From: Okeania sp. SIO2B3
GTDB taxonomy: Bacteria; Cyanobacteriota; Cyanobacteriia; Cyanobacteriales; Microcoleaceae
Assembly (NCBI RefSeq): GCF_010672525.1
Contig: NZ_JAAHGH010000008.1
Location: 441,739 to 505,738, forward strand
Direction: 5' to 3'
DNA length: 64,000 nt
Below the pieces are notes generated by a model. The model had not been told where the DNA came from and made no database searches. It was given only the letters and a program-made list of their open reading frames with translations. The translations under genes and the position numbers were made by a program. Shown here piece after piece: positions 10,495 through 57,042 of the stretch; position 1 is the first letter of the stretch, and each line of letters starts with the position of its first letter.

Positions 10495-11034
10495 TATTGT
10501 ATTTGGTTGGAATAAAGGTCAGAAAAATGAAATCAAATTAGGAAAAAAAGTAATTCTGAGTTTGTACCAATTCCTACAGCTAGACTGAAAGAAAGAATAG
10601 CTCAATTATGTGAAGAGTATGGGATTATATTCATAGAAACTGAGGAAAGTTATACTTGTAGGGGCGAATGGCCATTCGCCCCTACGTTTTTAGATGGTGA
10701 CAATCTACCTAATTATGATGAGAAACTCGGTGCTGGTGCTCGGACCCAGGTTCCGAGCAAGGAAGCACCGACCCTACGGGCCGATGATTGGAAACCATTA
10801 GGAAAAAGAATCAAGCGTGGTTTGTATAGAACAGGTAATAATTGGTGTGTTAATGCAGACTGTAAGGTCGCTGCAAATATCATCACAAAAGTAAGCAGAA
10901 AGCTAAGTTTAGACTTAAGCCGACTGTGTAGGGGCACCGCGGAAATTGTCCCCAGAGAGTGTATTTCAGCTAAGAAAAAACGAAGCAACATGGATTTATC
11001 GGTGTTGCGTAGTATCAACTTAGAATCCCCGTGA
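10495..11034 (+). pseudogene. tnpB C-terminal relic carrying in-frame palindromic insertions
   Basis: A C-terminal TnpB segment: IVFGWNKGQKNEIKLGKK, a frameshift near 10545, then FVPIPTARLKERIAQLCEEY, ETEESYT, FLDGDNLPNYDEK, DWKPLGKRIKRGLYRT and NNWCVNADCKVAANI. The N-terminal half is missing. Two foreign inserts break the family pattern without breaking the frame. A 28-bp palindrome (10658-10685) follows ESYT inside the zinc-finger region, and a roughly 60-bp GC-rich insert encodes LGAGARTQVPSKEAPTLRAD. From about 10545 to 11034 the frame stays open. The track ORF starts only at 10822 because no earlier start codon exists in frame. Confidence 0.75.
10658..10685. repeat. 28-bp perfect palindrome (family G)
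   Basis: A perfect inverted repeat whose half-site is GTAGGGGCGAATGG. Related palindromes occur at 33598-33625 (half GTAGGGGCGAACGG), 22807-22834 and 39004-39029. This copy lies inside the tnpB relic and preserves its frame. Confidence 0.9.
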
Positions 11035-22222: not shown

Positions 22223-22810
22223 ATGAGTGTACAGTATGCAACTACAACAGAAGCAGCATTTCTATTGAATATTTCCACAGGTAGATTAAGAACTCTACTG
22301 AATCAAAACCGTGTTAGAGGTGCTCAAAAAATCAAAAGACTTTGGATGATTCCATTAAATAAACGGGGAATGCCAGAAATTGCACCAGGTCGCCGTGGTC
22401 CTGAAGGTACTTGGAACAAAAATCAACGTACAGGCAATACCTTTATTCATGTTCTGCGAAAGACCATTGACTATAACCGAGACCATGGAACTACTCATCC
22501 AGCAGTTGCCGTAAAAGTAGGAGATAAAAAAAATTATTGCCACGCTCTGAAAATTAACGGACCTTGCCAAATCGTTTATCAACCTCATCAACCCAATAGA
22601 AGTCAAGCCGGGGGAGCACGTCTGTGGATAGAAGTAGAACCACAACATATAGTAGAGCGAGTATACTTCAGTAATGGAGATTATGGTCCGCCACCGGAAG
22701 TAGTTGAGCAGCGGGCAAAAAGTAAGAAGTCAAAAAATACAAGGAAACAACAGAAGCACTCAGATAAATACAGGACTTACGCAAAAGAAGAAGTTATACA
22801 ACATTTGTAG
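22223..22810 (+). CDS. HTH DNA-binding protein, paralogue of 52985-53530
   Basis: 195 residues. Residues about 6-50 form an excisionase/MerR-like helix-turn-helix: TTEAAFLLNISTGRLRTLLN, GAQKIKRLWMIPLN. A Trp/Gly/Pro-rich middle follows (MPEIAPGRRGPEGTW), then a domain with INGPCQIVYQPHQPN and ARLWIEVE, and a basic tail. The paralogue at 53 kb has the same order (TTEAASLLSIS, GMPRVSGRKRGPKPNW, IHGPCRIVYRPDKPH, ATVWIET). I do not know the family's function. Its position 420 bp from cpeA makes pigment regulation conceivable but untested. The last 13 codons and the stop lie in a CAGGACTTACGCA repeat. Confidence 0.65.
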   Translation: MSVQYATTTEAAFLLNISTGRLRTLLNQNRVRGAQKIKRLWMIPLNKRGMPEIAPGRRGPEGTWNKNQRTGNTFIHVLRKTIDYNRDHGTTHPAVAVKVGDKKNYCHALKINGPCQIVYQPHQPNRSQAGGARLWIEVEPQHIVERVYFSNGDYGPPPEVVEQRAKSKKSKNTRKQQKHSDKYRTYAKEEVIQHL

Positions 22811-22862
22811 GGGTTAACGGCCGTTAACCCATACCATAAGTAGTAGTTATGCGTAAATCCTG
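22771..22862. repeat. MITE family D (CAGGACTTACGCA ends) with nested palindrome
   Basis: Inverted ends CAGGACTTACGCA and TGCGTAAATCCTG enclose about 66 bp, including a GGGTTAACGG/CCGTTAACCC palindrome of family G. The gene at 22223 reads into it and stops at the TAG of the nested palindrome. Other copies: 35850-35951, 40463-40555, and a half copy at about 24952. Confidence 0.75.
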
Positions 22863-25669: not shown

Positions 25670-26739
25670 AATCTTTTAAAACTAAGCTAAAACTTAAACT
25701 ACAACAAAAAACAATACTTGCCAAGCACGCAGGAGTAGCTCGTCATGCTTATAATTGGGGGTTAGCAACTTGCATAAAAGAGTACGAAGAAACTAAAAAA
25801 CGCCCTAGTGCAATTACCTTGCATAAACGTTTAGTCGCTGAAGTCAAATCAATTAATCCCTGGTATTATGAGGTGTCTAAATGTGCCCCACAACAAGCAT
25901 TGAGAGATTTAGAGAGAGCATTTAAGAACTTTTTAACCATTCCAAAACGTGGATTCCCGGTCTTTAAGAAAAAAGGGAAAAAAGACAGTTTCTATCTAGA
26001 AGGAAGCATTAAAATCTTAAAAGGGAACTATATAAAACTACCCAGAATAGGAATAGTAAAAACTTATGAAATCTTGCCATCTGTGCTCATCAAAAATGTT
26101 ACCATCTCAAAACGTGCAGATAGTTGGTATATCAGCTTTAAATATGATTTAGAACCAGCACCTAATTCACCTGTAAAAAAACGAGCTGTTATTGGTGTAG
26201 ATGTAGGTATAAACACCCTAGCTACCTGTAGTGATGGAACAACCTACGCTAACGTCAAAGCCTACAAGCAAGCTAAAAAACGATTAGTTCGTCATCAACG
26301 TGCAGTCAGTAAAAAAGTTATTGGTTCCAAAAACAGAATTAAAGCAGTAAAAAGATTAGCCAAGGCTCACAAAAAAGTAGCTGATATCAGAGCCGATACG
26401 CTCCATAAAATCACAACATGGTTAGCTAAAAACCACAGCACCATAGTGATAGAAGACTTGAATGTAAGTGGAATGCTCAAAAATCATAAACTAGCAAGTG
26501 CCATAGCAGACTGTGGCTTTTATGAGTTTAAGCGTCAACTTACATACAAATGTGAATGGTATGGTAGTGAATTAGTCATAGCTGATAGATTTTATCCAAG
26601 TTCTCAAATATGTTCTCACTGTGGGCATCAACAGAAAATGTCTTTAAGTATGAGAACTTACAAATGCGGACACTGTGGTTTCACTGCTGACAGAGATTTT
26701 AATGCAGCTGTCAACTTAGAAAATTATGCACGTCAGTAG
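25666..26739 (+). CDS. tnpB: TnpB RNA-guided nuclease (IS607-associated)
   Basis: 357 residues, full length. TnpB proteins are omega-RNA-guided DNA nucleases. All catalytic parts are visible: RuvC-I GVDVGINTLATC, RuvC-II VIEDLNVSGML, zinc finger CSHCGHQQ...YKCGHCGF and RuvC-III TADRDFNAAVNL. The N-terminal KTKLKLKLQQKTILAKHAGV region and RHAYNWGL helix are normal. The reading frame stops a little earlier than many relatives, but the sequence after it still resembles a TnpB C-terminal tail, which is also where the omega RNA is expected. Confidence 0.93.
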   Translation: MKSFKTKLKLKLQQKTILAKHAGVARHAYNWGLATCIKEYEETKKRPSAITLHKRLVAEVKSINPWYYEVSKCAPQQALRDLERAFKNFLTIPKRGFPVFKKKGKKDSFYLEGSIKILKGNYIKLPRIGIVKTYEILPSVLIKNVTISKRADSWYISFKYDLEPAPNSPVKKRAVIGVDVGINTLATCSDGTTYANVKAYKQAKKRLVRHQRAVSKKVIGSKNRIKAVKRLAKAHKKVADIRADTLHKITTWLAKNHSTIVIEDLNVSGMLKNHKLASAIADCGFYEFKRQLTYKCEWYGSELVIADRFYPSSQICSHCGHQQKMSLSMRTYKCGHCGFTADRDFNAAVNLENYARQ

Positions 26740-30134: not shown

Positions 30135-30588
30135 CATTAGCAAATTTACTCCGGCGTTGCAAAGCTAAATTAGGTGGTAACGGTCAGTTTTGGCCCAATG
30201 GTCAATCAGCAAAATCAGGATTAAATAAGTCTTTGCAAGATGCTGCTAGTATCAATTTCTTGATGTTTTAGAGTATATAGCTTGGAAACTGGGTAAGCGA
30301 GTTGTAAAAGTAGACCCAAAAGGTACGTCTCAACATTGTTGGGAATGCTTGAATCAAGTCTCTAAAAGCTGATCAGAGCGCTGGTATTCATGTCCTAAAT
30401 GTGGACAAGAACTAGACAGAGACTATAACTCACCCACCCCTCTAGCTCCCCTCCCGGGAGGGGATGGGGGTGGGTTGGATTGTTATCAACACAGGAGGAG
30501 GACATCACTTCTGTTAAAACTGCGGTCAGGGCGTCTCTGACTGAAGAATCCTGCGCTCTCCCGTAGGGGAGCGTCGGGAGTATGTCAA
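30135..30588 (+). pseudogene. tnpB C-terminal relic with palindrome insertion
   Basis: Pieces of TnpB in changing frames: WPNGQSAKSGLNKSLQDAA, LEYIAWKLGKRVVKVDPKGT, QHCWECLNQVSKS then an in-frame stop, ERWYSCPKCGQELDRDYN. Directly after the RuvC-III DRDYN codons a 48-bp palindromic repeat (about 30430-30477; CACCCACCCCTCTAGCTCCC left arm) replaces the expected AA-N sequence. The right end CGTCGGGAGTATGTCAA closes at 30588. Confidence 0.75.
30430..30477. repeat. 48-bp palindromic repeat (family H), copy 1
   Basis: Left arm CACCCACCCCTCTAGCTCCC, centre CTCCCGGGAG, right arm GGATGGGGGTGGGT. A second copy is in the tnpB at 56997-57042, inserted at the same place after the DRDxxA motif. Confidence 0.85.
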
Positions 30589-33597: not shown

Positions 33598-33625
33598 GTA
33601 GGGGCGAACGGCCGTTCGCCCCTAC
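33598..33625. repeat. 28-bp perfect palindrome (family G)
   Basis: Half-site GTAGGGGCGAACGG, perfect inverted repeat. It follows a purine-rich AGAAGGAAGAA tract. The 33458-34445 gap also holds the repeat at 34047-34276; nothing else is recognised. Confidence 0.9.
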
Positions 33626-55782: not shown

Positions 55783-57042
55783 TTGATTTTTCAACCTTTG
55801 ATTACTTTAGCTTACCAGTACAAGCTCAACCCAACTCAGCAACAAGAAATAGAGATTAATCATATTCTTGATGTTTGTAAGAGCGTGTACAATTATGCTT
55901 TGAGAGAGCGAAAAGACTGGTCAAGTGCGAGACAATCACCAATTAATAGCTGTTCAATTGTTTCTGAATATATTATTCCTACTGAGACACCTTATCCTAG
56001 TTACAATCATCAAGCCAAAAACCTCACAATAGCTAAAAAAACTCATCCTAGATTAAAGTCAGTTAATGCTCAAGTTTTACAACAAACTTTAAAGACTCTA
56101 GATAGAGCTTTTTGTGGTCTGAAATCTCAGGGTAAAGGTTTTCCAAGATTTAAGAAAAAGCTGAGAAGTTTTGTTTTTCCTGCCATGCTGAAAAATTCCT
56201 TAGGCAATAATAGAGTTAAACTGCCTCAGCTAGGTTGGATTAAGATTAAACAAAGTAGGCCATATCCAGATGGTTTTCAAGCTAAACAAGCTAGGATAGT
56301 CAAAAAAGCAACTGGTTATTATTTGATGATTACTTTTACTTCATCTGAGTTAGTGCCAGATAATCCAGTAGGTAAAAAGTCATTAGGAATAGATGCAGGT
56401 ATAGAAAGTTTTGTAGCGACTTCAACTGGAAAGTTAATCAAATCTCCTAAGTTTTTATTCAGCCAACTACGCGAGCTTAAATTGGCGAGCTACCCCGCGC
56501 CGCCTCCAGGCGCAAGCGGTCAGACCCCGCGTCGCCTCCAGGCCCAAGGGAATGCTGACCAAGAGAGGGAACGTGCGAGCTTACTGCAAAGAAGACTTAA
56601 GAAAAAAAAGAAGGGGTCAAATAATTGGTTAAAACTTCAGAACAAGATAGCTAAACTACATGAGAAAATAACCAATACTAGACGGGACTGGAATTTCAAA
56701 TTAGCTCATGAACTTTGTGATAATACAGACAATATTTTCGTTGAAGATATTAACTTTAAGTCTTGGTCTAGAGGTATTGTTAGAAAACAATCTAATGACA
56801 GTGGCATCGGTCAATTGATCAATGAAATACTTCCTTATATATGCTGGAAAAGAGGCAAGTATTATGGAAAAGTTGACAAGGATTATTCTTCTCAAGAATG
56901 CCCTAAATGTGGGCAGATTGAAAAGAAAAAACTCTCTGATAGAAAGCATAATTGTAGCAACTGCGGTTATGAAATAAATCGTGATATAGCTGCTGCACCC
57001 ACCCCCATCCCCTCCCGGGAGGGGAGCAAGAGGGGTGGGTGA
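55783..57042 (+). CDS. tnpB: TnpB with two in-frame foreign inserts
   Basis: 419 residues from TTG 55783 (TTG 55798 also possible). RuvC-I KKSLGIDAGIESFVATSTG, RuvC-II IFVEDINFKSWSRG, zinc finger CPKCGQIEKKK...HNCSNCGYE and RuvC-III EINRDIAAA are all intact, so it may still be active. A GC-rich insert of about 30 residues (SYPAPPPGASGQTPRRLQAQ...) interrupts LRELKLA-SLLQRRLKKKKK. At the end a 46-bp palindrome replaces the normal tail with PTPIPSREGSKRGG. The original tail (SGIHTVKEKACGDGLTGVQL) is still encoded downstream in another frame. Confidence 0.85.
   Translation: MIFQPLITLAYQYKLNPTQQQEIEINHILDVCKSVYNYALRERKDWSSARQSPINSCSIVSEYIIPTETPYPSYNHQAKNLTIAKKTHPRLKSVNAQVLQQTLKTLDRAFCGLKSQGKGFPRFKKKLRSFVFPAMLKNSLGNNRVKLPQLGWIKIKQSRPYPDGFQAKQARIVKKATGYYLMITFTSSELVPDNPVGKKSLGIDAGIESFVATSTGKLIKSPKFLFSQLRELKLASYPAPPPGASGQTPRRLQAQGNADQERERASLLQRRLKKKKKGSNNWLKLQNKIAKLHEKITNTRRDWNFKLAHELCDNTDNIFVEDINFKSWSRGIVRKQSNDSGIGQLINEILPYICWKRGKYYGKVDKDYSSQECPKCGQIEKKKLSDRKHNCSNCGYEINRDIAAAPTPIPSREGSKRGG
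56490..56575. repeat. GC-rich insert in tnpB frame
   Basis: About 87 bp with two CGCCTCCAGGC motifs and flanking GCGAGCT on both sides, possibly a target duplication. It is far more GC-rich than its surroundings and adds about 29 residues to TnpB without shifting frame. Confidence 0.7.
56997..57042. repeat. Palindromic repeat (family H), copy 2
   Basis: ACCCACCCCCATCCCCTCCC, centre CTCCCGGGAG, then GGGGAGCAAGAGGGGTGGGT: the inverted counterpart of 30430-30477. It provides the tnpB stop codon. Confidence 0.85.

Follow-up and report, generated by a model that had tools for sequence, protein, structure and literature searches.

Homing elements such as mobile introns and inteins have a fixed residence at a conserved position and invade homologous sites that lack them. 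In filamentous cyanobacteria, small dispersed repeats (SDRs) of 21-27 nt, said to have been described by Elhai in 2008, reportedly form hairpins and are apparently mobile. REP and REPIN sequences, with their RAYT transposases, are short, high-copy bacterial palindromes that are mainly extragenic (PMC3116915, PMC3733652). Rickettsia palindromic elements (RPEs; Ogata 2000, 2002) are palindromic selfish DNA of about 150 bp that lies within many unrelated protein-coding genes, often in frame (PMC10969869). Short palindromic repeats fill many bacterial genomes.

The 44-bp palindrome described here shares features with each of these systems and is set apart from each. Like the RPEs it lies within ORFs, in frame at most sites tested, but it is far shorter, resides almost only in tnpB, takes the place of target bases and turns up repeatedly at one and the same site of paralogous genes. 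Like the SDRs it is a very small hairpin repeat, and its shorter relative occurs in heptamer arrays, as SDRs reportedly do; its length and its intragenic position would distinguish it from them. It is short and present in high copy number, as are REP and REPIN sequences, yet lies inside tnpB genes. As with homing elements, the same site in homologous genes is occupied recurrently, as judged by trees and AU tests; unlike them, the palindrome has neither coding capacity nor an endonuclease, shows no sign of splicing, deletes 14-21 bp of its target and displays no co-conversion tract. Finally, one copy is carried by a 452-bp mini-IS of the MITE-like kind derived from IS200/IS605, whereas the palindrome itself lacks recognisable IS605 ends, moves independently of the flanks of its carrier and, unlike MITEs and DNA transposons, leaves its sites without a target-site duplication. 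No earlier description of a tnpB-confined palindrome was found in the part of the literature that was searched, which included work on intrastrand triplexes.

A 44-bp palindrome in Okeania genomes

The core of the palindrome, ACCCACCCC..GGGGTGGGT, occurs in at least 52 exact copies in the 10.0-Mb Okeania genome (249 contigs) from which the window, a stretch of 64,000 nucleotides, is taken. It is predicted to fold into a 10-bp outer stem, a small asymmetric internal loop, a 7-bp inner stem and a CCGG loop, with minimum free energies of -33 and -35 kcal/mol and z-scores of -2.5 and -3.3 for 61-nt stretches around the two window copies.

Two types can be told apart. The core CCCTCCCGGGAGGGG, allowing at most one mismatch, has about 680 matching sites, the majority of which are of the A type (AACCCACCCCTAACCCCTCCCAGGAGGGGAA), a shorter form without the second outer arm that frequently adjoins arrays of 7-bp repeats and is also carried by other cyanobacteria. 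The B type is the full palindrome. Exact matches to a B-specific 31-mer number 52 in the window genome, 53, 4, 16 and 28 in four genomes of the same genus, 3, 5 and 1 in a second genus of the family and 1 in another family, with none in the remaining relatives among the 391 genomes searched. The Okeania records with the palindrome are SIO3B5, SIO1I7, SIO2C9, O. hirsuta and SIO2F4. In the single locus from another family of the order (L198), the B palindrome lies in tnpB-like sequence, a few codons downstream of the position called S2 below.

Table 1. Window features and tnpB target sites of the 44-bp palindrome.
Feature	Window position	Strand	Replaced	Remarks
Palindrome, 44 bp, variant AGCTAGA	30432..30475	- (CATCCCC..GAGC orientation)	21 bp of empty site	Site S4, after DRDYN
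Palindrome, 44 bp, variant AGCAAGA	56997..57040	+	17 bp	Site S5, after NRDIAA
Mini-IS, 452 bp	30137..30588	+		3' part of tnpB with palindrome inside, no long ORF
RuvC-III codons D-R-D-Y-N plus 2 bases	30415..30431	+		Left border of S4; by translation
tnpB ORF, 419 aa	55783..57042	+		PF01385, PF07282, PF12323
Empty S1 and S2r sites in another tnpB	26437..26505	+		KNHSxIVIEDLN .. KNHKLASAIADCG
Site S1			14 bp	Before EDLN of RuvC-II
Site S2			17 bp	After KNH/KNR
Site S3			16 bp	After KNH/KNR
Site S4			21 bp	After DRDYN of RuvC-III
Site S5			17 bp	After NRDIAA of RuvC-III
Site S6			17-18 bp	Near C-terminus
Site S7				Near C-terminus
Site S8			20 bp	RuvC-I region (DGK..WYNK)
Site S10				In another TnpB (L329)

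Two copies in the window

As the first-pass annotation had recognised, the window holds two copies of the palindrome in opposite orientations (Table 1), a pairing that is not expected by chance (0 in 100 shuffles). In each case the RuvC-III codons of a tnpB immediately precede the palindrome, and the two hosts do belong to different subfamilies: one is the 419-aa ORF, which matches OrfB_IS605 and Cas12f1-like_TNB, and the other is the degenerate remnant within the mini-IS. The annotation had placed both copies at the same codon, which is not quite so. With the codon of the first D/N-R-D residue numbered one, the copy at 30432 starts at the third base of the sixth codon (DRDYN-tcA) and that at 56997 at the third base of the seventh (NRDIAA-gcA), in the same phase and one codon apart. 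Nor are these the plain insertions they had been taken for, as in both cases the palindrome stands in place of bases of the empty gene. The last residues of the 419-aa ORF (..AAAPTPIPSREGSKRGG) are encoded by the palindrome, and the junction creates a TGA that removes only the C-terminal tail of TnpB after RuvC-III.

The mini-IS around the 30432 copy has many relatives with the same ends in Okeania genomes (e.g., L289, L221, L210 and L288). It is missing from the orthologous locus in six genomes (G001-G004, G016 and G021), and so reached its place recently, with the palindrome aboard. Some copies thus travel with their IS. In the tree of S4 flanks, the nearest relative of the 30432 copy is an empty one (L450). 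Orthologues of the 56997 copy are uninformative, since this part of the gene has been lost in the closest genome.

The palindrome is nearly confined to tnpB

The site preference suspected from these two copies proved stronger than had been claimed. In a contiguous sample of 1.064 Mb, in which tnpB-derived DNA accounts for 2.7% of the bases, such DNA contains all 11 B copies and none of the 98 shorter related palindromes (Fisher, 3e-15, with copies partly non-independent; about 4e-10 when only the six distinct sites are counted). A tblastn comparison shows overlap with tnpB for at least six of these 11; the others lie at S8, S4 and S6, and translation and Pfam assign the S8 carriers to another TnpB subfamily. 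Across this 1.06 Mb, the copies are neither scattered nor derived from one duplicated locus. One copy elsewhere (L026) lies immediately ahead of TPQGG in a group II intron reverse transcriptase of 586 aa, whose reading frame it preserves. The palindrome has its home in the tnpB of IS200/IS605-type elements in Okeania.

TnpB proteins are relatives of Cas12 ancestors, and their genes are here themselves a habitat for smaller selfish DNA. The window genome (G000) contains at least 150 tnpB-like loci in its 10 Mb, many of them degenerate.

Target sites and exact replacement

About ten fixed positions of tnpB are occupied, from RuvC-I to the C-terminus (Table 1). Comparison of empty with filled copies shows that the 44 bp stand in for 14-21 bp, a length fixed per site, and that this loss takes the place of a target-site duplication, of which there is none. 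No sequence common to all target sites was seen; S1, S2 and S3 have the left border motif AAAAAYCRYA in common.

At the protein level, KNH[KLAKAI]SDAN becomes KNH-NPPPSPPGRGARGVG-SDAN, and KNH[SQIVI]EDLN becomes KNH-NPPPSPPGRGARGVG-EDLN. The net change in length is divisible by three at S1, S2, S5, S6 (in its 17-bp form), S8 and S7, the last judged from one distant empty copy, and is not so at S3 and S4. In-frame stops occur as a TAG within the S2r palindrome and as a TGA after that of S5, while some filled tnpB ORFs read straight through the palindrome (432 and 452 aa). In L146 (883-2181), an ORF for a palindrome-containing TnpB continues in frame into a DUF4291 domain.

These positions and frames bear on a proposal made with the first two copies, namely that the palindrome spreads through breaks made by TnpB and its omega RNA, or parasitises or silences TnpB, which we consider very improbable. 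TnpB guides derive from the flank of the IS, not from tnpB itself, and one copy lies in the group II intron reverse transcriptase, both of which speak against the proposal. A link to the omega RNA would suit the near-3' sites S4, S5, S6 and S7, but S1, S2, S3, S8 and S10 lie in the RuvC-I/II part, and with the majority of sites far from the omega-RNA region the hypothesis covers the 3' sites at most. The stops at S2r and S5 are consistent with silencing; many filled ORFs remain open, however, so silencing is not a common property of the palindrome. In favour of the proposal are the confinement to tnpB and the fact that TnpB is an RNA-guided nuclease (PMC8612924).

Repeated entry or loss at the same sites

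Loci fetched by means of the palindrome are biased in its identity, and the comparisons were therefore re-tested on some 190 tnpB regions collected through Pfam hits, independently of the palindrome, and on S4 copies collected by flank only. Many of the genomes compared are metagenome assemblies. In the Pfam-collected set, the palindrome is 96-100% identical where its flanks are about 69-88% identical, with the exception of S8, which has both orientations; pairwise mismatch is 2.4% in the palindrome versus roughly 11-18% in the flanks.

On trees built from the flanks, filled and empty copies are intermixed. The two states change eight times at S1, five at S2f, four at S3, two at S8 and eleven at S4 (39 copies), and a single filled clade is rejected at each (AU test: 7e-64, 2e-7, 3e-5, 2e-5 and 3e-64, respectively); for S6 the single-clade value is 0.05. 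Trees from one side agree (left-only and right-only for S1-S3, left-only for S4), which makes chimaeric assembly across the 44-bp repeat unlikely. Since filled sites lack the target bases, merely losing the palindrome would not restore an empty site, and each change between states needs a template or a new event. Gains or losses of the palindrome at a given site have thus recurred many times across different tnpB lineages, the direction of single cases being unpolarised. An exchange of this kind is seen at one S5 locus, where the filled L235 (SIO3B5) and the empty L415 (window genome) differ by a clean 17-for-44 swap in surroundings that are about 99% identical.

One could suppose that few palindromes ever entered tnpB and that all copies descend from these by IS transposition. 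The S4 mini-IS is indeed mobile as a unit, and some filled copies are almost identical to one another (L021/L347, 0.7% apart). The rejection of single clades at S1, S2f, S3, S4 and S8, together with a palindrome far less diverged than its flanks, leaves this account scarcely credible.

Further regularities concern how the palindrome is placed. Its orientation is fixed per site, S8 alone having both, and its internal variant is mostly fixed per site, S1 being mixed. At S2f and S2r, which are homologous, the palindrome points in opposite directions and differs in its variant, both features being fixed at either site. Co-conversion of neighbouring bases was not detected: at matched divergence, mismatch in the first 6 bp is 0.125 between filled and empty copies and 0.118 between empty copies. 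At S4, three copies have hybrid left edges. When compared with their sisters, L451 (sister L465), L453 (L458/L473) and L459 (L460) retain 3-9 bases of the target of their own lineage, followed by the palindrome. In L453, both arms of the inner stem also carry a paired change from C-G to T-A, which fits hairpin-templated correction or selection for pairing.

A proposed route of spread

We lean towards the view that this is a selfish palindrome that spreads by site-to-site copying among tnpB paralogues in very short patches, in addition to travelling with ISs. Rare founder events would place it at new positions of a multicopy mobile gene, with the loss of 14-21 bp. From each founder the palindrome would then reach the matching position of further tnpB copies through templated copying of short patches, be it repair of a break or gap or template switching, with a filled paralogue as the template and a return at the borders of the element, and IS transposition would multiply the filled copies. 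The fixed orientation, the mostly fixed variant and the entry into diverged copies argue for copying from a filled copy of the same site, the missing co-transferred flank implies that the copied patches are very short, and the hybrid borders at S4 suggest where some of them began. In this respect the palindrome would resemble a homing element that encodes nothing itself.

Several points count against copying. Ordinary gene conversion should carry neighbouring bases along, yet even the first 6 bp show no sign of this; neither a nuclease or recombinase nor a common recognition sequence was identified; and the concentration of founders in tnpB, plus the one group II intron reverse transcriptase, exceeds what copying alone explains. 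The unpolarised direction of single cases and the many metagenome assemblies weigh on the same side.

An alternative is site-specific transposition in trans, in which a recombinase or transposase recognises tnpB sequences and swaps the palindrome in, excising 14-21 bp each time. The razor-sharp borders, the flanks that are not co-transferred and the left motif of S1, S2 and S3 are as this would predict. We nonetheless regard it as unlikely, given that the replaced length varies among sites, that there is neither a target duplication nor a motif common to all sites, that S2f and S2r have the same left motif yet opposite fixed orientations and different variants, and that the S4 borders are hybrid.

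It is also quite unlikely, in our judgement, that each site received a single old insertion, kept since by selection on the hairpin, with later tnpB recombination shuffling filled and empty alleles. Several Okeania species do have filled copies at the same sites, and the stem can be maintained by paired changes, as in L453. On the other hand, a hairpin has no apparent function at ten coding positions, in both orientations and with stops at some; the long-branch copy L133 has changes within its palindrome; and the L235/L415 swap is recent.

Returning to short-patch copying, it may be, although we hold this with less than even confidence, that a coding-free homing palindrome of 44 bp converts empty alleles at fixed tnpB sites both in paralogues and between species, its borders being precise to about 1-10 bp. 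If so, few DNA elements known to spread in a super-Mendelian way would be as small. The roughly ten replicated sites, the many filled/empty pairs and the orthologous swap provide exact before-and-after sequences, so that the mechanism is directly testable as templated short-patch copying versus enzymatic insertion.

Other small repeats and insertions

Additional small elements were observed. At S2/S3, tnpB is interrupted and frameshifted in five loci (L012, L036, L206, L246 and L256) by a second element, unrelated to the palindrome, that is about 53 bp long, has the inverted ends GGTGCG..CGCACC and lies one codon upstream of the site. Following SPKFL, the tnpB linker contains small GC-rich repeats that keep the frame, at 56480-56595 of the window and at 1229-1358 of L415; at this point the orthologous copy of SIO3B5 carries another insert. 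Lastly, perfect or near-perfect 28-bp palindromes of one family (GTAGGGGCGAAYGG/CCRTTCGCCCCTAC) occur in the window at 10658-10685, 22807-22834 and 33598-33625, and a palindrome of this type is also found once inside the tnpB of L415.
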